Source: a virus
Length of the DNA stretch: 24,451 nucleotides
IMG/VR virus record: IMGVR_UViG_3300026528_000004
Span: 1 to 24,451 of that record
Strand: one strand, 5' to 3'
The position numbers and the translations under genes are program-made. The first letter of the stretch is position 1, and each line of letters begins with the position of its first letter. Below are positions 539 through 24,236 of the stretch, piece by piece. The notes under the pieces were generated by a model. The model was given only the letters and a program-made list of their open reading frames with translations, was not told the DNA's origin and made no database searches.

Positions 539-991
539 CTAGGACTTTGAATTTAGAATTTCCAGGAATTTAATTTCAGCTTGTTCCTGAGAAATTCCAA
601 GTTTCATCATATTTCTGATGATTCTAGTTCTTTCATCATCGTTTTTTCGATACTTTGCTTTCTCATGATTCTTCCAATGATGAATTAACTCTCGAATTTT
701 ACTCTTACGGCGTAACCCCATCAATGGATAAACAGTCATCATCCATTGAATAGCAATATTACCAATAAGAGTAAAAGTATATCGAGGTTTTCTTTCATAA
801 CCATCAGAACTAACACCTTCACTATGAGAGCTTATTATTTTAGTCCTATCCATAATATCTCTCACGTGTTCAACTACATCTAAATCAGTCATTGCAATTG
901 CAAGTCTTGGACTATTATTGTTCAAACAGAAGGTGCCTTCACCTTCTAAAATGCCTGCAACATAAGCAATTTCTTTGATTGATTTAGACAT
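539..991 (-). CDS. Free-standing LAGLIDADG homing endonuclease
   Basis: 150 aa. Residues 8-21 (AYVAGILEGEGTF) are a LAGLIDADG helix with the catalytic acidic residue in the GEG position. The rest has the beta-rich and helical pattern of a small single-motif LAGLIDADG enzyme, which normally acts as a homodimer and cuts a long asymmetric site to spread its own gene. It begins 2 bases after the scaffold stop and ends 13 bases before the capsid start, so it is wedged between two essential virion genes with almost no spacer. No SD is visible before its ATG, so translation probably depends on coupling to the scaffold gene. The capsid gene's SD lies right at its 3' end. No intron is evident: both neighbouring reading frames look complete at this junction. 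Confidence 0.8.
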   Translation of the reverse strand: MSKSIKEIAYVAGILEGEGTFCLNNNSPRLAIAMTDLDVVEHVRDIMDRTKIISSHSEGVSSDGYERKPRYTFTLIGNIAIQWMMTVYPLMGLRRKSKIRELIHHWKNHEKAKYRKNDDERTRIIRNMMKLGISQEQAEIKFLEILNSKS

Positions 992-993
992 AG

Positions 994-2289
994 TTAGTCT
1001 TGCATAAGGAAATCAAGCGTTCTCATTCCTTTTGGAATTTCTTTCGGAGAAGTTACTTTATTTGACGACGATGAACGTGGCTTACCTGGAGCAATTGGAC
1101 CCTTGTTTTCAGATTCAGAGTCATCATCTGAAGTCCGTTTACCCATACCTCTTAAAGCTTCAATTCGGGCCTTTTTAATGACTGAAGGCAACAGTGTTTT
1201 AGCCTTAGAGATATAAGCAGAACGAATTCTATCTACTGATTGATGATTAAATCCATCTTCAAATGCTTTTTCCCATAACTTGTCTATAAGAACTCTGAAT
1301 CTTGAATCCTGAGATATAAGAGATTCAAGAGAATCAATCGCGTCCCGAGAGGCATTTCTTCTTACATAATCAGTCATAGACTGTTTAGGGTCAATATTCG
1401 CATCTATAGTTGATTTCAATACATTATTCACACGAGTATTTAAATCTCCTCGTGTTGACTCAAACTGTCTTTCAGTAAAAAGACGCTCACGTTCTTGAAT
1501 TTGTTTTTCTCTAGTATTATCTTCAGGTCTTTCATCACGCGATAGCACCGAAGGTGGTTGGAAATCTGATGAACCAAATATAAATTGATTCAAAACTTGA
1601 GCAGCTTGTTTGAGAAGGTCATTATTACTTCTATTTCCTTCCCGAACCATTGCCATTATTGTATGTTTAGAAATATTCCCTAACACATGATAGTAGGCTT
1701 GTTCATCAACTTTACCTAGAGTGGTAATATAATTATCTACTATCTTATGAAACGCGCGTGGGTCTGTTTCTTTAACAGTCTTTAGAATAGTCTCGACATT
1801 TCCACTCATTACATCTGACTCAAAGCGGTCCAATATCTCAGATTTTTCAACAGCAGCCTTAGCATCTTCAATAGTTGGCAATAGCTCAGTAAATTGTTGT
1901 TCTCTATAATAAGCCTTCTCTAAATAAGGAAAATCCTTAAAAATATTTGGATATTTTGCAAGTATCTCTCTTCTCGGGACAGGTGTTACTAGCTCTAACT
2001 TTTCCTCATCAGGCTCTTCTAACTCCTGTTCGAGTTCTTTTAGTTCATCATCTTCTTTCTCTTCTTTTTCTTTTCCTCTATCATCTTGCCTTTCTTCGCT
2101 AATTTTTTTATCAACATCTTCTGTTTTATGCTCAGTTCTATCCTTTTCTTTAGGTTCATCTAATTTAATGACTTCTTTATCGTCATCCTCTCCCATAAAC
2201 TGAATCATATCCTCCTTACTTCCACTATCAGTAGAAGGAATAATAGTTTCAGATTTGAAAAATGGCTCACTATTGAATAGTAGTGACAT
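994..2289 (-). CDS. Probable capsid scaffolding protein
   Basis: 431 aa from the ATG at 2289. I chose this start because AAGGTG lies 6 bases upstream; the frame also opens at a GTG at 2298, but that GTG is part of the SD itself. The N-terminal quarter is very acidic and charged (runs of E, D and K, such as KEKEEKEDDELKELEQELEE), and the rest is mostly helical with many charged residues. Such composition together with a place between portal and major capsid genes is typical of internal scaffolding proteins, which direct procapsid assembly and then leave. No protease signature is visible. The first 20 bases overlap the end of the upstream HNH gene in another frame. The function is inferred from position and composition; no catalytic or family motif was recognised. 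Confidence 0.65.
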   Translation of the reverse strand: MSLLFNSEPFFKSETIIPSTDSGSKEDMIQFMGEDDDKEVIKLDEPKEKDRTEHKTEDVDKKISEERQDDRGKEKEEKEDDELKELEQELEEPDEEKLELVTPVPRREILAKYPNIFKDFPYLEKAYYREQQFTELLPTIEDAKAAVEKSEILDRFESDVMSGNVETILKTVKETDPRAFHKIVDNYITTLGKVDEQAYYHVLGNISKHTIMAMVREGNRSNNDLLKQAAQVLNQFIFGSSDFQPPSVLSRDERPEDNTREKQIQERERLFTERQFESTRGDLNTRVNNVLKSTIDANIDPKQSMTDYVRRNASRDAIDSLESLISQDSRFRVLIDKLWEKAFEDGFNHQSVDRIRSAYISKAKTLLPSVIKKARIEALRGMGKRTSDDDSESENKGPIAPGKPRSSSSNKVTSPKEIPKGMRTLDFLMQD

Positions 2290-2728
2290 TGCTTTCACCT
2301 TGTTTTACACACCAAGTTGTCTTTTTCAAATATTCAAGCATATTCCAAATTATATCTTCATCTTCATGTAAGTATGCTATCGCTAAATTACACTTCTTAC
2401 ATAATATTCCACGAACTTTCTTAGTTTTATGGTCATGGTCTATATGAGGCTTATTTATTTCATTAAATTCATGACAACAAATTAAACAAATATTATTTTG
2501 ATTTTCCAATATTGATTCAAATTCTTCATATGTTATATTATATCTAGTCTTAAAAATCTGATTTTTATATCGCTTTCTACCACTTTCGGTTTTTTTAAGT
2601 TCTCTATACCATTCAGTTCTATATTTACTGTGACATTTTTTACACCAACTAGGTCGAGGCGACCATCTCATTTCATCTGATAATAAATTACTTTCTTTAC
2701 ATTTACTACAAGTATAAAATTTTGTCAT
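2270..2728 (-). CDS. Endonuclease VII-type HNH endonuclease
   Basis: 152 aa. The N-terminus has a zinc knuckle (CSKCKESN and WCKKCHSKY), and the C-terminal half has the recombination endonuclease VII signature: CLICCHEF, then HIDHDHKTKKVRGILCKKCN, giving the catalytic His/Asp cluster and the second zinc pair. Enzymes of this family cut branched or specific double-stranded DNA; free-standing copies often behave as homing genes. It sits between portal (stop 5 bases upstream) and scaffold genes. Its last ten codons (QGESNVTTIQ) closely resemble the last ten of the portal (QGEGNVATVQ), and the scaffold ATG lies inside this tail. No SD precedes its ATG. Confidence 0.85.
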   Translation of the reverse strand: MTKFYTCSKCKESNLLSDEMRWSPRPSWCKKCHSKYRTEWYRELKKTESGRKRYKNQIFKTRYNITYEEFESILENQNNICLICCHEFNEINKPHIDHDHKTKKVRGILCKKCNLAIAYLHEDEDIIWNMLEYLKKTTWCVKQGESNVTTIQ

Positions 2729-2733
2729 ACTAT

Positions 2734-5004
2734 TTATTGAACAGTTGCTACGTTACCTTCACCTTGGATTGGTGTAGACTGCATTTCAAGAGCATTAGGT
2801 TTTTCTTCTGGTGCTTGTCCAGTCTGTTGTGGTGGTGGCTGCATAGCCATCTGATGCATTTTTCCATGTAATAACACATTCCTATATCCATTAGGATTAT
2901 CAATCTTAGCTTGTCTACCAGCCTCAGATGTGACCCATTTTCTTACAATTTCAAATTCAATTTGATTATTATCAAAAATTGGGTCTACCTCCACTGATGG
3001 AGTCTCTTGCCCATCCATCGATGGAGACGGTTCAGAGTTCAATAGAATTTTAATTTCATCATATTGCTTTTCAACTGAATCTTCTCCAGGCACATAGAAA
3101 TCTACAAGTCCTAATGCATCCCTTATAGCAGGTAAATTCTCTGGTGAACCTAAGACTGCCATAATTTCAGGACTATTAATCTGAAGTAATTTCTCTACCA
3201 CATCCTTAATTTGGCTCCAAGTCAATGGAAGATTTTCATTTGCTTCTAATTCAATCTTTCCAATTTTTCCTTCAAGTTCAGCTTTCCGAATAAATACATT
3301 GATGAAACTTCCATCCTGATTTCTTTGAACATCGCGCTCGTCATCCTGAACTAATTTAATGAATAATGGAATAGCCTTACCAAATATCTGTTTCCACCAA
3401 ATAGTAAATATTTTCCAAACATTCTGAAGGCGCTGAAGCGCCTGTGCTCGACTCATTGAATACTGTGACGCTGTTTCACTTCCTTGTAAGGCGCCTCCGA
3501 AAAGTGATGGTAAAGCCCCTGAAACTAATTGTGCGAGGCTCTGTATATTAGTCGCAAAAGGCATGACTTCAGGTGACAATGTAGCAGTTCGAGCTTCATA
3601 GAATGCATCACCTAATCCCTTACCAGATTTCGGTATGGCTTCATATATTCCACCCGGAACAGCTTCCATATTTCTATATGCAGGGAAATTCAATACTCCA
3701 GGGTCAGCGAATGTTTGACCTATTCCATGCTCAATTGTCTGAAGAATGAGTGAAATCAAATCATTAGTAATTTCTTGAATCGAAACCAATAACATTCCAA
3801 GTGGGTCATGATGAATAAAATCTGAGAGAGGATTATATGTCAATGTCCAATGGTCATCTAAACTCTCAGGACAAGCTTCGCCAAATTCATCATTCACTAA
3901 TACTACTTTAGCTCCTTTTGGAAAGAGTTTTTTGAGTCGCGAGGTTTCATCTTCATCAAGTATATTAAATGATGACGGTCGAAGCCAAAAATTCCTTATA
4001 GTGACATTATTTGTGGGATATTCACCTTGATATTGATTAGATAATCTTCCATATTGCTCGTATGGGTCCTTTGGTCCAGTTGATGTAGAGATTTTACCCT
4101 TGAATAACTTATCTTTTTTAGAGTGTAAATGATTGAATCGTTCAATCGCATTCGCATAATGAGTTTCGTAACTAAATCCTAAATATGGTGTGTCCTGTTG
4201 TTTCTTTGCATAATTCGCGACTTTTATGTAAAGACCTCCATATGCTTCAAGACAGACACGAGATTTCGGAAGTGTAGTCTCACCTACTAATCGAGTGACA
4301 GTAAGAGTTTCTTGTTGAACTGATGGAGTCATCATCTGGCCGCAGGCAGGACATAATTCTTGTCCATTCTGTTCTGATTGATTCGATTCATTAGTTGAAT
4401 TATTTGATTGAGTTAATTCATCAGGAAGAAATTCATCAGGATTAGTCGTTTCATTTAATGTAAATCCACAACTCGGACACTTCACACTCTGTTGAGTCTC
4501 TTCAGATTCTTCATATTTCTTCTGAGTATAGGTTCCATATTCTTCATCTTCCTTAGGATATGAATAACACGCCACCATACCTTCGGTGCAATAAATGAAT
4601 AATGCATGGAGCCAAAGTAATGGAACATCATTATGTCGATAAATTATTTGTGAAATCTTGTCTCCAGCACGCGCGGTGGATAAATCAAGTGTATTATCTG
4701 CATCATCAGGAAAACATTTAATTGGAGGAACTGTAACTGATAATGCGGCTATAATTGATTCCAAATAAGCCCGAAACACATTAACTGGCTTGTCATAATA
4801 TGACTGTTCAGAATCTGAATCAGTATCGGTATCGATACGCCAATCATGTGCTACTTCACTATACCATGTTTTCTGAAATCCCTCCCAAAATAATTTTAAT
4901 CGTCTCCAAGTTCTAATTTGTCGTTCACGGACACTTGTATCTTCTTTATCGAAATGTTCTACACACTCAACTAATAAACGTTGGACTTCCTCATCTACCT
5001 TCAT
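2734..5004 (-). CDS. Portal protein
   Basis: 756 aa, close in size to P22-type portals (about 725 aa). Portals form the dodecameric ring at one capsid vertex through which DNA is packaged. The N-terminal third has the usual helical wing (YYDKPVNVFRAYLESIIAALSVTVPPIKCFP). The middle includes DPLGMLLVSIQEITNDLISLILQTIEHGIG, and a helical segment near the C-terminal half (GSETASQYSMSRAQALQRLQNVWKIF) matches the stem/clip-associated region of the family. Residues about 175-222 contain two CPxCG knuckles (CPSCG and CPACG) separated by an Asn/Ser/Gln-rich linker, which looks like a zinc ribbon insert. Gene order (small genes, portal, scaffold, capsid) supports the call. The start overlaps the end of an HNH gene by 14 bases. 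Confidence 0.8.
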   Translation of the reverse strand: MKVDEEVQRLLVECVEHFDKEDTSVRERQIRTWRRLKLFWEGFQKTWYSEVAHDWRIDTDTDSDSEQSYYDKPVNVFRAYLESIIAALSVTVPPIKCFPDDADNTLDLSTARAGDKISQIIYRHNDVPLLWLHALFIYCTEGMVACYSYPKEDEEYGTYTQKKYEESEETQQSVKCPSCGFTLNETTNPDEFLPDELTQSNNSTNESNQSEQNGQELCPACGQMMTPSVQQETLTVTRLVGETTLPKSRVCLEAYGGLYIKVANYAKKQQDTPYLGFSYETHYANAIERFNHLHSKKDKLFKGKISTSTGPKDPYEQYGRLSNQYQGEYPTNNVTIRNFWLRPSSFNILDEDETSRLKKLFPKGAKVVLVNDEFGEACPESLDDHWTLTYNPLSDFIHHDPLGMLLVSIQEITNDLISLILQTIEHGIGQTFADPGVLNFPAYRNMEAVPGGIYEAIPKSGKGLGDAFYEARTATLSPEVMPFATNIQSLAQLVSGALPSLFGGALQGSETASQYSMSRAQALQRLQNVWKIFTIWWKQIFGKAIPLFIKLVQDDERDVQRNQDGSFINVFIRKAELEGKIGKIELEANENLPLTWSQIKDVVEKLLQINSPEIMAVLGSPENLPAIRDALGLVDFYVPGEDSVEKQYDEIKILLNSEPSPSMDGQETPSVEVDPIFDNNQIEFEIVRKWVTSEAGRQAKIDNPNGYRNVLLHGKMHQMAMQPPPQQTGQAPEEKPNALEMQSTPIQGEGNVATVQ

Positions 5005-5458
5005 TTGGACTTACTTCTAGTTCTTTTCTTCGATTGAATTCCTCTAAATATGCAGCTGCCTTTAATAACAAATTTGGATTATCTCTAAAACTTCCCAATC
5101 CTTTATTACAACTTTCACATAATATTCCACGAAATTTACCACTTTCATGGTCATGGTCTATATGAAAATTCACATTTTTTCTTCCACAAATTATACAACC
5201 CTTATTAGTTATTTCTTCAAATGTTTCTCTATTTAAATCATATTTTTTCAATCTATTCTTAATTTGTTTTTCTACTAAACATTCTTTACATTTAGAAGTA
5301 GTTCCTAAATAGCATCTAAGATTGAGATAAAATTCTGATAATTTCTTGAATTGATTACATTCTGTGCATTTCCTTTCTATAATTGTTCCATCAATTAAAC
5401 GAGTTTCCATGTAATTTACATGGACTCTAGTTCTACCTCTTTCTGATAAATAACTCAT
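4991..5458 (-). CDS. Second endonuclease VII-type HNH endonuclease
   Basis: 155 aa. It has an N-terminal zinc pair (RKCTECNQFKKLSEFY, then SKCKECLVEKQ) and the C-terminal core GCIICGRKNVNFHIDHDHESGKFRGILCESCNKGLG, containing both Cys pairs and the HxDHDH active-site cluster. It is a paralogue of the HNH gene on the other side of the portal, with the same domain order but only moderate identity, so the two probably arrived separately. It lies between the Gly/Met-rich gene (4 bases upstream) and the portal, whose ATG is inside its 3' end. No SD precedes its ATG at 5458. An internal ATG (METRLIDG) is an alternative start. It probably acts as a homing or recombination nuclease; whether it is active cannot be told from sequence alone. 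Confidence 0.85.
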   Translation of the reverse strand: MSYLSERGRTRVHVNYMETRLIDGTIIERKCTECNQFKKLSEFYLNLRCYLGTTSKCKECLVEKQIKNRLKKYDLNRETFEEITNKGCIICGRKNVNFHIDHDHESGKFRGILCESCNKGLGSFRDNPNLLLKAAAYLEEFNRRKELEVSPNEGR

Positions 5459-18717: not shown

Positions 18718-18734
18718 TTGGGCCGTAATGGACC
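18718..18734 (+). repeat. Directional motif, plus-strand copy before the helicase
   Basis: TTGGGCCGTAATGGACC directly after the stop of the zinc-finger/coiled-coil gene. The first part matches the copy after the HTH gene stop (TTGGGCCGGGCCGTATTC). It could be read as codons from a TTG start, but the ATG at 18751 has a better SD. Confidence 0.6.
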
Positions 18735-18750
18735 AAATAAAGAGAAAATA

Positions 18751-21700
18751 ATGGACCGAATCATCGCGTCTCAATTCACTCGAACTGAATTAAATAAACA
18801 TAATCTATCTGATTGGAAAGTTCGCCTCACATCAAACCCTAATCAATCATTCCTAGGATTATGTTCATATCAGGATAAATGCATATTCCTGAATGCACAT
18901 CATATCGACATTCATTCCAATCTAGACGTAATCAATACAATTCGACATGAAGTGGCCCATGCTTTGACTCAGGGACACGGCCATGATTCAGTGTGGCGTG
19001 ATAAGGCTATCGAGATAGGTTGTGATAATACGAATGCATGTTCTCATCTGTCATTACCAGAACACATAATCGATGCAATTCGGTCGGGTCACATAGTAGA
19101 ATATGAGGTAAAAGAAGAAGTTGTAACAAATGTAATTCGCACACCTACATACAAAGTAACACGTCTACAAGATAAATGCCCTGAATGTGGTAAAGTAGCT
19201 AAAGAAAAGTTCTCAATCGAAACAGTCGATAAGAATGGTGATGCGATTAAACTCATCACACTCGAATGCTTTCATATTATTAAAAAGGTGTTGCCTCGCG
19301 CGACTCCTTTTGAAAGTATGGTATCGAATGATTGGAAGCCTGAAATTAAGCAGTGTAAACACGAATGGACTAAAAATAAATGTAATCATTGTGGAGAATT
19401 CAAGTTATATTCCTTCCAAGTAACTGGTGCTAAGGCTACAGAAATTGGCCTCGCGTCTCAAAGAGGATTCGGTATATTCGATGATATGGGTCTTGGGAAA
19501 GCACTTTCTTTAAAAGCCTTAATCGCGACCCCATTTGGATTTCGGTCAATGGAAAGTTTGAATCTTGGAGATTTAGTCATTTCATCAGATGGTAAATCAT
19601 ATCCAATTACCGGAATTTATCCACAAGGTAAACTAGATACATACAGAATTCTATTCAGTGATTTTACAAAAGCAATTTGTAGTGAAGAACATTTATGGAT
19701 TGTAAATACTCCAACTAGAAAATACAGAAATCAACCAAATCTAGTCAAATCAGTCAAAGAACTGAAAGGTGATTTATACCAAACATCGGAAAATTCATCT
19801 GGTAAACAGAACAACAAGTGGTATATTCCTATTACCAAACCAGTTGAATTTGCTCCTGTAACAATTCCTATAGACCCATATACACTTGGACTATTATTGG
19901 GAGATGGTTATTTTGGTGAAACTCATGTAACATTCACAAAATCAGATAATGAATTACATGAATACCTAAGTTGGAAACGAAATGGTGATACATCAAGCGC
20001 GCCAAAAGAAATTAAAAATGAATTGAATGGACTTGGATTAATTGGAACACGAGCTAACAATAAATTTGTTCCAGAAGATTATAAATTCAATTCAATTGAT
20101 GTAAGATGGTCAGTTCTTAGAGGATTGATGGATACAGATGGTTCTGTATGGAATAATGAAGTTGTTGAATATACAACAATCTCATCAAAATTAGCCAATG
20201 ATGTAATATTTCTAGTTCAATCATTAGGTGGAATTTGTAGATTAACAATAAAGGAAGAACCAAAATATACTTACAAAAATGAAATATTAATTGGACAAAA
20301 ATGCTATAGAATAGTTGTTAATATTCCAGAATGTCCATTTAGTCTTAAAAGAAAAGCATTATCATGGACTAATATATCAAAACAGAAGAAATACAAGCCT
20401 ACGCGAGCAATTTTTTCTATAGAAAAAATTGGACAAGAAGAATGTCAATGTATTTCAGTTGATAGTCCAGATAAATCCTATCTAATTGAGGATTTCGTTG
20501 TAACTCATAATACAGTTCAGGCTCTCGCGATTCTAAAGTATCACAATGAATATACTCCAACAATGGTCGTCACAAAGAGTGCAATTAAATTCCAATGGTT
20601 CAAACAGGCAGTTAGATGGCTCGGGCCTGAATACATCAGTCAAATCATATCAACCTCTCGTGATTACTTAATGCCAGGCCTGAAACTCTACATCATTCCC
20701 TACGATTTACTCAGACGATTTCCTCGTGAGAAATTACATAAACTCAGAATCAAATGTGTCATATTGGATGAAGTTCAACAAATCAAGAATCCAGATTCAG
20801 CCAGGACTCAGGAAGTTAGGAAACTAGTAGGAGCGAGTGAGAATTGTAAAGTAATAGAGCTTTCCGGCACTCCATGGAAAAATAGAGGCGGAGAATTCTT
20901 TCCTGCACTTAATTTACTCGACCCAGTGAAATTTCATTCTCATCAAGGATATTTAGATAGATGGGTTGACTACTATTGGCATGGTAATAAACGAAAGATG
21001 GGTGGAATTAGGAATGTAGAGAAGTTCAAAGAATATACAAATGGAATGCTCATCCGTCGCGAATACAATGAAGTAATGGATGAATTCCCTGAAGTCAATC
21101 GAATGAAATTGTCAATACAATTGAGTGAATTAGAACAATCAGCCTATGATGATTCGGTAAGTGAATTCGTAGCATGGTATAATCAGGCCATAATCGATGG
21201 TGTAGAAGAGCAGTTAAATGGAATAGAATTACTCGCAAGAATGGCAAGATTGAGGCACATAACGGGCCTCGCGAAAATTCCGGCTACACTGAGCTTTGTA
21301 GAGGAATTTATAGAAGATTATCCTGATAAGAAATTGGTTATATTCGTTCATCATAAAGATGTCGGTGTCATTACATTCGATTGTCTAAATGAATGTGATA
21401 AGACTAAGAATCCAGACTGGTTCGACTTAGCGAATGAATTGAAAGAATCTGGAACGAGAGTATTAAAATTGAATGCAGAGATGGATGATTCATCTCGATT
21501 CACAGCACAAGAGTCATTTAATAATTCACCACGCGCGATTCTCATAGCTTCGACTCTAGCCTGCGGAGAAGGATTAGACCTCCAGACTTGTGCAGATAGT
21601 ATCATGCATGAAAGACAATGGAATCCACAGAATGAGGACCAGGCCGCGCCGGGCAGATTTCGTCGTATCGGGCAGGTAAGTAGTGTAATTAATATAACAT

Positions 21701-21891
21701 TCCCTGAAGCTGAAGGAACTATTGACCAACATTTAGATATAATTGTCGAAGAGAAACGTAGAAACTTTCATGAAGTAATGAATAAAGGCGAAGTGAAAGG
21801 CTGGAGTCAGGATGAATTAGCACATAAATTAGCTGAAATGATTGTGAATAAACATCGTGAAAAGCGTAGTAAAAAGGAGAAAAGGGCATGA
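18751..21891 (+). CDS. SprT-like protease domain fused to SNF2-type helicase, with an intein
   Basis: 1046 aa from the ATG at 18751 (AAAGAGAAAATA before it), or 1057 from a TTG at 18718. In order: an SprT/WLM-like metalloprotease domain with HEVAHALTQGHGHDSVW (HExxH plus a third His); a zinc region (CPECG; later CKHEW...CNHCGEF); and an SNF2/DEAD-like helicase. Helicase motifs are DDMGLGK/TVQALAIL (Walker A, split by the intein), ILDEVQQIKNP (motif II), ELSGTPWKNR (III), STLACGEGLDLQTCAD (V) and APGRFRRIGQ (VI). After splicing it would be about 709 aa. SprT proteases cut proteins crosslinked to DNA; SNF2 motors move along double-stranded DNA, so joint removal or remodelling of DNA-bound proteins is a sensible inference. 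It follows the zinc-finger genes in one operon. Confidence 0.85.
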   Translation: MDRIIASQFTRTELNKHNLSDWKVRLTSNPNQSFLGLCSYQDKCIFLNAHHIDIHSNLDVINTIRHEVAHALTQGHGHDSVWRDKAIEIGCDNTNACSHLSLPEHIIDAIRSGHIVEYEVKEEVVTNVIRTPTYKVTRLQDKCPECGKVAKEKFSIETVDKNGDAIKLITLECFHIIKKVLPRATPFESMVSNDWKPEIKQCKHEWTKNKCNHCGEFKLYSFQVTGAKATEIGLASQRGFGIFDDMGLGKALSLKALIATPFGFRSMESLNLGDLVISSDGKSYPITGIYPQGKLDTYRILFSDFTKAICSEEHLWIVNTPTRKYRNQPNLVKSVKELKGDLYQTSENSSGKQNNKWYIPITKPVEFAPVTIPIDPYTLGLLLGDGYFGETHVTFTKSDNELHEYLSWKRNGDTSSAPKEIKNELNGLGLIGTRANNKFVPEDYKFNSIDVRWSVLRGLMDTDGSVWNNEVVEYTTISSKLANDVIFLVQSLGGICRLTIKEEPKYTYKNEILIGQKCYRIVVNIPECPFSLKRKALSWTNISKQKKYKPTRAIFSIEKIGQEECQCISVDSPDKSYLIEDFVVTHNTVQALAILKYHNEYTPTMVVTKSAIKFQWFKQAVRWLGPEYISQIISTSRDYLMPGLKLYIIPYDLLRRFPREKLHKLRIKCVILDEVQQIKNPDSARTQEVRKLVGASENCKVIELSGTPWKNRGGEFFPALNLLDPVKFHSHQGYLDRWVDYYWHGNKRKMGGIRNVEKFKEYTNGMLIRREYNEVMDEFPEVNRMKLSIQLSELEQSAYDDSVSEFVAWYNQAIIDGVEEQLNGIELLARMARLRHITGLAKIPATLSFVEEFIEDYPDKKLVIFVHHKDVGVITFDCLNECDKTKNPDWFDLANELKESGTRVLKLNAEMDDSSRFTAQESFNNSPRAILIASTLACGEGLDLQTCADSIMHERQWNPQNEDQAAPGRFRRIGQVSSVINITFPEAEGTIDQHLDIIVEEKRRNFHEVMNKGEVKGWSQDELAHKLAEMIVNKHREKRSKKEKRA
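19501..20511 (+). mobile_element. Ala1 intein with LAGLIDADG endonuclease, inserted in Walker A
   Basis: 337 aa, from Ala (ALSLKALIATPFGFRSMESL) to His-Asn (DFVVTHN), followed by Thr as the +1 residue. It is inserted between the Lys and Thr of GLGKT. The N-terminal splicing block has Ala in place of the usual Cys/Ser, as in known Ala1 inteins; block B is present (ICSEEHLW), and the C-terminal blocks are CQCISVDSPDKSYLIEDFVV then THN. The homing part has both LAGLIDADG helices: TLGLLLGDGYF and LRGLMDTDGSV. All residues needed for splicing and both endonuclease acidic residues look intact. Codon use is somewhat more AT-rich than the flanking helicase. Confidence 0.92.
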
Positions 21892-22830: not shown

Positions 22831-23880
22831 ATGAATGAACATCCAGATGAACGAACAATAAATGAAATTCCTATAACCGAAGTAATTGACAGGCCATTAG
22901 GAGGTAAATCCAATTTAATTCTAGATAGTCAAATATTCAGTTCAATCATGAACTGTCCTCGTCTCACCGACTTCAGATTCAATCATAACTTTATATCCAT
23001 AGGTGGTAAGTCAAGTTCATTAGAGTGTGGTTCAATAGTCCATGCATTCATGAAATCATTCTATCGCGCCTTAATAAATGGAGTGAAACGTGCTGACGCG
23101 ACTGGATTCGGATTGACATCGGCTGAATTATACATTAAAGGATGTCCTCATTGCACAGATTTTATTCCACAAGAAATCATTCGAGAAGATGGTCAGAAAG
23201 TTACATTAAGTAAACCACAATGTAATCATAAACCAAATGAATATCCTGGCCTAAAGAATACACAAGCCAAAAGCGAGGGATACAATGTAGGTTGGGAATA
23301 CGTTCTTTCAACTTGTGAACAATACGCCGAGTTTTATCGTAATGACCATTGGGTTCCACTTGAAGTTGATACTGTAAAAGGTGAAGTATTATATGAAGAT
23401 AATGAAGTCCGAATTATGTGGAAGGCCCAAATTGACCTTGTAATGGACACGAATCAAGGAATATTTCCAGTAGACCATAAAACGATGAAAGCTAGAAGAG
23501 ATACTTTGTCCCTTAATAACCAGTTTATTGGTCAGTGTTTATTGATGAAAACTAGAAATGTGTTCATTGATAAGGTGGGATTCCAAAAGACACTAAAGGC
23601 TGAAGAGAAATTCACTCGACCCCCTATTAGCTATACGGCAGAACGTTTAATCGAGTGGCAAAGTGAAATACTACCCTATTATGCAAAATTACTTCTTATG
23701 TATGCTGAATCTGGATATTGGCCACCTAATTTTAGCCATTGTGAAACTAAATACGGCAATTGTGCGTTTGTTGATGTCTGTCAATCCAATCCAAGCATGA
23801 GGGAAAGTGAACTAAAAAATAATTTCATGACGGGCGAAGCCTGGGACATTCAATCTGATGATATGAATGGAAATGACTAA
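22831..23880 (+). CDS. PD-(D/E)XK nuclease with Fe-S cysteines (RecB/Cas4-like)
   Basis: 349 aa. The nuclease core is WKAQIDLVMDTNQGIFPVDH followed by KTMK: the first Asp and the DHK of the D...(D/E)xK site. A conserved Gln in the following helix (LNNQFIGQCLLMK) is like motif QxxxY. Cysteines near the N-terminus (MNCPRLTDF) and C-terminus (CETKYGNCAFVDVC, giving C-x6-C-x5-C) match the 4Fe-4S arrangement of Cas4/AddB nucleases. An additional Cys pair (GCPHC) and QCNHK lie in the middle. Such nucleases resect DNA ends for recombination or replication. It sits before a Sak4-like ATPase, a pairing found in phage recombination modules, with an HNH gene in between. Confidence 0.8.
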   Translation: MNEHPDERTINEIPITEVIDRPLGGKSNLILDSQIFSSIMNCPRLTDFRFNHNFISIGGKSSSLECGSIVHAFMKSFYRALINGVKRADATGFGLTSAELYIKGCPHCTDFIPQEIIREDGQKVTLSKPQCNHKPNEYPGLKNTQAKSEGYNVGWEYVLSTCEQYAEFYRNDHWVPLEVDTVKGEVLYEDNEVRIMWKAQIDLVMDTNQGIFPVDHKTMKARRDTLSLNNQFIGQCLLMKTRNVFIDKVGFQKTLKAEEKFTRPPISYTAERLIEWQSEILPYYAKLLLMYAESGYWPPNFSHCETKYGNCAFVDVCQSNPSMRESELKNNFMTGEAWDIQSDDMNGND

Positions 23881-24236
23881 TGTCTAGACCTGGTAAAACT
23901 ACTGATGTAGTTAAACGAATAAAAGCCAAAACTATATATGAAGGAGAATGTTGGAGATTTACTGGCAAAAAGGCTGGTAGAGGATATGGTTGTATCTGGT
24001 ATAAAGGACGAACTGTAAGAATCGGTCGCCTTATATGTCATTTGTTTCATAATGCCAATTTGAAGGATAGTTCTTGGGTTGCATGTCATACTGATGAATG
24101 TAAATTCAATGATTGTTGGAATCCAGAGCATCTTAAAGTAGGAACCCAACAAGAAAATGTAAATGACCAGATAAGATTAGGTCGATTTTCTTATGGAACT
24201 AAAAATCTTTTAGGATTTAAAAGAGGGTCTAGATGA
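23880..24236 (+). CDS. HNH endonuclease (HNH_3 type)
   Basis: 118 aa. The typical HNH_3 order is present: GRGYGCIWYKGRTVRIGRLI, then CHLFH, and the active-site region VACHTDECKFNDCWNPEHLK followed by VGTQQEN. The two Cys of the CHTDEC...C and His residues of HNH are intact. It starts inside the nuclease stop (TAATG) and ends overlapping the ATPase start (ATGA), so it is packed precisely into the recombination module. GTCTAGA occurs at both edges of the gene. Free-standing HNH genes like this are usually homing genes. Confidence 0.85.
   Translation: MSRPGKTTDVVKRIKAKTIYEGECWRFTGKKAGRGYGCIWYKGRTVRIGRLICHLFHNANLKDSSWVACHTDECKFNDCWNPEHLKVGTQQENVNDQIRLGRFSYGTKNLLGFKRGSR

Follow-up and report, generated by a model that had tools for sequence, protein, structure and literature searches.

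The junction of the portal and scaffold genes in the viral DNA studied here is very probably the insertion scar of a free-standing Endonuclease VII (Endo VII, DHHRN) homing endonuclease gene, which entered the overlap of the two genes. The 3' end of the portal gene occurs at this site in two diverged copies. The upstream copy closes the portal gene, and the downstream copy forms the C-terminal tail of the endonuclease (HNH) gene and holds the start of the scaffold gene. A second genome, L067, has the same arrangement. The window, i.e., the whole stretch of DNA analysed, comprises 24,451 nucleotides and contains the following features of the locus:

2734..5004, minus strand: portal protein gene, 756 aa, SU10-portal-like (weak Pfam SU10_portal match, relatives and gene order)
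2734..2766, minus strand: putative new portal 3' end, QGEGNVATVQ and stop, with AACG instead of the scaffold ATG (sequence comparison)
2270..2728, minus strand: Endonuclease VII / HNH-type (DHHRN) gene, probable homing endonuclease, between portal and scaffold (PF02945, E 4.8e-18; PHROG endonuclease VII)
2303..2728, minus strand: endonuclease proper, residues 1-142 (extent of isolate homologues and AlphaFold confidence)
2270..2302, minus strand: sequence read as the native portal 3' end, which serves today as C-terminal tail (residues 143-152) and stop of HNH and holds the scaffold start region (ATG at -20, low-confidence tail in the model, missing from HNH relatives at other sites)
2295..2300, minus strand: scaffold Shine-Dalgarno (SD) sequence AGGTGA (sequence)
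994..2289, minus strand: scaffold gene, ATG at 2289-2287, 20-nt overlap with the HNH 3' end (ORF list; position as in the portal/scaffold overlap of relatives)

The Pfam match of the portal protein is weak (E 7.5e-6, under the gathering score); the terminase large subunit gene is located upstream of portal in the same gene run. The gene at 994..2289, for which neither a Pfam nor a PHROG match was found, is presumed to encode the scaffold by gene order; its position matches that in relatives.

The doubled gene end and the endonuclease tail

At its 3' end the HNH gene (final 33 nt, minus strand 2302-2270) reads CAAGGTGAAAGCAATGTCACTACTATTCAATAG and encodes the peptide QGESNVTTIQ, and the portal gene (final 33 nt, minus strand 2766-2734) reads CAAGGTGAAGGTAACGTAGCAACTGTTCAATAA. 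Direct comparison confirmed the agreement at 25 of 33 positions described in the earlier note; the two copies share the reading frame and each closes with a stop. The HNH and portal ends are the sole pair with at least 22/33 matches in the whole window, and in 300 first-order Markov shuffles, with 3000 positions scanned in each, the maximum never exceeded 22. Among 1987 neighbouring gene pairs from the first batch of related loci, the HNH/portal pair of the window and of the identical locus L003 showed the highest 3'-end similarity (25/36), the runner-up reaching 21. L003 is 100% identical to the window across 9282 bases and is therefore the same virus, giving no independent evidence.

Only the HNH copy contains the scaffold ATG and SD (2300-2295), as the earlier note had placed them, and this ATG lies at -20 from the HNH stop. 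The portal copy has no ATG anywhere, because AACG stands at the equivalent position.

The HNH protein of the window matches Pfam PF02945 at residues 59-136 of 152, i.e., the motif lies toward the C-terminus. According to PMC6083498, this position is characteristic of the endonuclease clade, unlike the resolvase clade. The residues D97, H98, H100, R106 and N114 and two cysteine pairs (C81, C84 and C110, C113) are invariant in an alignment of 14 sequences. In catalytic residues and cysteine pairs, the protein agrees with the DHHRN family, and in motif position with its endonuclease clade. The best matches of its AlphaFold model among solved structures were Hpy99I and T4 Endo VII, with low TM-scores of about 0.3.

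The tail does not belong to the enzyme itself, as follows from the HNH relatives at other sites, the isolate homologues and the structure model. HNH relatives at other junctions mostly end a few residues past the last helix, and their tails are unrelated. The core of the window protein, ...IIWNMLEYLKKTTW, matches that of L144, ...LIWNMLEYLKRTTW, which is encoded at another site; the cores end in ...EYLKKTTW and ...EYLKRTTW, respectively, and the tails differ (CVKQGESNVTTIQ in the window and NKEVAS in L144, each followed by a stop). Homologues from isolate phages align to about residue 138. The AlphaFold model is of high confidence to about residue 143, with pLDDT below 50 at residues 144-147 and 149-152, and the tail is predicted to be disordered from about residue 144. 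The close HNH relatives found in viral contigs belonged to the same virus only, and an alignment query added L067 and five distant sequences. The HNH relatives were inspected for the same terminal peptide at other sites, and it was not present in them.

Related junctions and a second case

The portal protein search yielded 46 viral contigs at first and about 500 by an alignment query, the best 80 per query being kept. After removal of duplicates, the junction set comprised 175 distinct portal ends with downstream sequence. Portal relatives were not found among isolate phage records, and prokaryote genomes contained one, in a Bacteroidetes MAG contig. In 162 of the 175 junctions the next gene already begins before the portal stop, nearly all of them without an intervening gene; the 162 include two LAGLIDADG cases, where the next gene is the endonuclease. 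The nested ATG is most commonly located at -20 relative to the portal stop (71 junctions), followed by -17 (23 junctions). The portal ends of relatives resemble that of the window, e.g., QGEGNVATQQ in L005 and MGEANVATVQ in L011 (both closed by a stop), with the scaffold ATG within the NV codons. The commonest position of the ATG in relatives is that found in the HNH copy, and therefore the HNH tail corresponds to the native portal end with the scaffold start. The same agreement places the HNH gene within the ancestral portal/scaffold overlap.

These junctions bear out two proposals of the earlier note, the direct overlap of portal and scaffold in the ancestor and the in-frame fusion of the original portal end to the HNH C-terminus. 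HNH-free relatives with a QGESNVTTIQ-like portal end over the scaffold start exist, as in L005 and L011, and in the HNH-free relatives, which were inspected for separated portal and scaffold genes, the two genes do overlap.

In L067, an HNH protein 47% identical to that of the window is encoded at the same portal/scaffold site, with the same scar. It ends in KGEANVNTQQ and a stop, and the scaffold ATG lies inside, 20 nt before the HNH stop. In match counts over 30 nt, a length too short for a tree, the HNH tail of L067 agreed on average at 23/30 with eight members of its clade that lack the HNH gene, and the portal end at 16/30, the members agreeing with each other at 21.6. The likeness to relatives continues beyond the HNH stop into scaffold. 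No GGAGAA SD is left in the portal end, and the ATG there runs directly into TAA. By local-alignment score alone the doubling in L067 is not significant (p 0.068); the case rests on the comparison with HNH-free relatives. The junction HNHs of the window and L067 form a clade of their own against 12 others (98/93 support). Their hosts are not sisters, L067 belonging to a supported group of nine portal rows, of which all but L067 are HNH-free. The window and L067 are the two independent HNH cases of the scar, and in both the gene end is doubled, with one copy on either side of the endonuclease core. Comparison of the sequences at these junctions shows that the ancestral genes overlapped, that the tail is the old portal end, that the scar recurs in L067 and that the upstream copy has lost the scaffold start. 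L067 also has a second Endo VII-type HNH gene upstream of portal (2804-3259), with a different tail (EYLKRHSEKIA and stop).

Proposed course of the insertion and its alternatives

In the proposed ancestor, the scaffold ATG would have lain about 20 nt ahead of the portal stop, and portal would have terminated within the scaffold start. The gene of the endonuclease would have entered about 33 nt before this stop, in the portal frame, and the second copy of the portal 3' end would have come with it or later, on its upstream side. After the insertion, the new copy would terminate portal, and the endonuclease ORF would read into the old portal end, gaining the last ten codons and the stop as its tail; scaffold would keep the old SD and ATG, now within the HNH tail. 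The work would thus be split between an upstream copy that keeps the portal peptide but no longer provides the scaffold start (AACG in the window, ATG-TAA in L067) and a downstream copy that keeps the scaffold start and is released from portal function. Losing the scaffold start may spare the upstream copy false initiation and perhaps self-cutting, and the altered copy might resist both the enzyme and excision between the repeats. The insertion boundary was set directly upstream of CAAGGTGAA in the window, and in L067 directly upstream of the AAGGAGAA that matches it; with free-standing homing enzymes, however, cleavage may occur at a distance from the insertion point (PMC2988022).

Homing is the likely route of entry, because insert-bearing and insert-free alleles occur at one site, the Endo VII active site is intact and F-CphI, a member of the DHHRN family, has demonstrated activity (PMC6083498). 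Break repair is known to co-convert the flanks (PMC2988022), and co-conversion would supply a donor portal end, leaving the end of the recipient as the HNH tail. The new portal end may then have come from another phage. L067 fits this model well, and the window is consistent with it without proving it. The donor-derived portal end proposed in the earlier note may be right: the L067 portal end departs from those of all its close relatives, which speaks for a foreign or recoded end, and the window is ambiguous. The two copies in the window agree at 23/30 and the best native match of either copy is 24/30, so local duplication followed by divergence could also have produced them.

Such a local duplication, caused by a replication slip or break repair, would have come first, the endonuclease gene then arriving between the copies or as part of the repair, with no donor; the copies would diverge by dividing the two functions. 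This is a variant of the scar reading that differs in the source of the portal end, and it is to be taken seriously, although it falls clearly short of being probable. Apart from the near equality of the match counts in the window, it is favoured by L180 (8268-8345), where the portal end is doubled around a short linker and no endonuclease gene is present. The upstream copy there has no nested scaffold ATG and the downstream copy has one at -20. However, L180 may reflect either an insertion that was later lost or an independent doubling of the overlap, and the two copies in L067 agree at 15/30 only, the portal end falling off its clade and the tail on it.

It could also be supposed that the tail is native to the HNH family and resembles the portal end by convergence, both ends housing the scaffold start in another frame. 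SD and ATG would indeed constrain both copies if both were scaffold starts, but the portal copy has no ATG, HNH relatives encoded elsewhere, as well as those of isolate phages, lack the tail, and the L067 tail matches the portal ends of its own HNH-free cousins. These observations refute convergence in the main and make it very improbable. Chance similarity or misassembly, which the shortness of the repeat might suggest, has a negligible probability, since the shuffles never reach 25/33 and the same scar in another genome, L067, refutes it.

Other endonuclease insertions and known systems

A LAGLIDADG gene is located at the portal/scaffold junction in L164 (3557-4037) and L202 (8297-8767). Both genes begin at an ATG nested in the portal end (MRNLRSN... 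and MNLLQLSS..., respectively), and the same nested ATG starts scaffold in relatives (MRNLLFNS... in L203). The scaffold of L164 and L202 restarts downstream, with a different and shorter N-terminus. Judging from the sequences, two unrelated endonuclease families have reached opposite solutions, HNH having taken the old portal end and LAGLIDADG the old scaffold start. Insert-bearing and insert-free alleles are thus found at one conserved site, with two HNH and two LAGLIDADG junctions in 175, and the portal tree gives four state changes for the presence of the insert.

Within the reading of the junction as an insertion scar, a more general proposal can be made tentatively, as it falls a little short of being probable. 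The endonuclease lineage may carry in its mobile unit the 3' end of the upstream gene in recoded form, with the next start silenced, and may invade essential overlaps in this manner. The recoding would block self-cutting and repeat excision, and LAGLIDADG genes would use the mirror trick at the same junction. If this is true, junctions of overlapping essential genes, which a plain insertion would break, become invadable.

Several junctions of the set have other forms. The LAGLIDADG gene product of L202 has the tail GGTIQ, followed by a stop. L207 (8250-8330), a relative of L202 (90% in portal), has no inserted gene, a portal end NEPENIGTVQ with a stop and the scaffold start TAATGG; this junction could be the product of LAGLIDADG gene loss. 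The overlap is resolved in L160, L167, L169, L170 and L175, where the portal end has no nested ATG and scaffold starts 9-54 nt downstream.

Among all endonuclease genes of the related loci, the doubling was clear only at the portal/scaffold HNH genes. It was not found for LAGLIDADG and HNH genes at the portal-start and scaffold/capsid junctions, nor was it clear at the Endo VII genes of 12 isolate phages (Klebsiella, Rahnella, Mycobacterium, Rhodococcus and others). The weak score of one of these isolates, KpV2811 (p 0.003 before correction for 12), was taken as chance.

The closest precedent appears to be the mobile ORFs of fungal mitochondria carrying a foreign C-terminus, known from Allomyces atp6 and Glomus atp6, atp9, cox2 and nad3 (PMC3630166). 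In these too, the endonuclease ORF lies at the 3' end of a host gene, which ends in a diverged inserted copy, and the native end is left downstream of the endonuclease (PMC3630166). The fungal enzymes are of the LAGLIDADG or GIY-YIG type, whereas that of the phage is Endo VII-type; moreover, no overlapping downstream gene is described for the fungal ORFs, and in the case of atp6 and cox2 mRNA showed no displaced native end (PMC3630166). The displaced end in the phage must keep working, because it holds the start of the next gene and supplies the endonuclease stop.

F-CphI of cyanophage S-PM2 is likewise encoded by a free-standing phage gene and has the Endo VII motif near its C-terminus, with D, H, H, R, N and cysteine pairs. 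However, it lies beside an intron-bearing psbA and takes part in collaborative homing, and the available part of PMC6083498 describes no gene-end duplication. The seg and mob genes of T4-like phages are also inserted between genes, and several overlap the upstream ORF (segC by 20 bp, mobA by 23 bp). They home via break repair with co-converted flanks, but, unlike the phage studied here, neither a diverged second end of the upstream gene nor a donated C-terminal tail is described in the available part of PMC2988022, and the text of this review does not mention duplication. No phage precedent for the doubling of a gene end was found in the open-licence literature.

Overlapping essential genes should be almost shut to insertion, and a doubled overlap with one job per copy would be a way in. 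The scar is readable, as it orients the event and points to the likely target of the endonuclease from the letters of the DNA. Phage endonucleases may have C-terminal peptides that are in fact ends borrowed from the invaded gene. A process described in fungal mitochondria would thereby extend to phages, with the twist that the displaced end still has to work.

Including the HNH gene at the junction, the window contains four endonuclease genes of the free-standing kind, and also one apparent intein. Another gene of the Endo VII type (4991-5458, minus strand) lies just upstream of portal, the start of which it overlaps by 14 nt. An HNH or LAGLIDADG gene is present at the portal-start junction in many relatives, with no clear doubling of the end of the upstream gene. 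A LAGLIDADG-type gene (539-991, minus strand) is located between scaffold and the next gene, probably that of the major capsid protein, and has homologues at various junctions in L182, L203, L217, L093, L103 and L207. An HNH endonuclease-like gene with a PHROG match (23880-24236, plus strand) follows an exonuclease-like gene. The SprT-like and SNF2 helicase gene (18718-21891, plus strand) contains an apparent intein with a LAGLIDADG domain at GLGK|T, whose first residue is apparently Ala, suggesting an unusual class.
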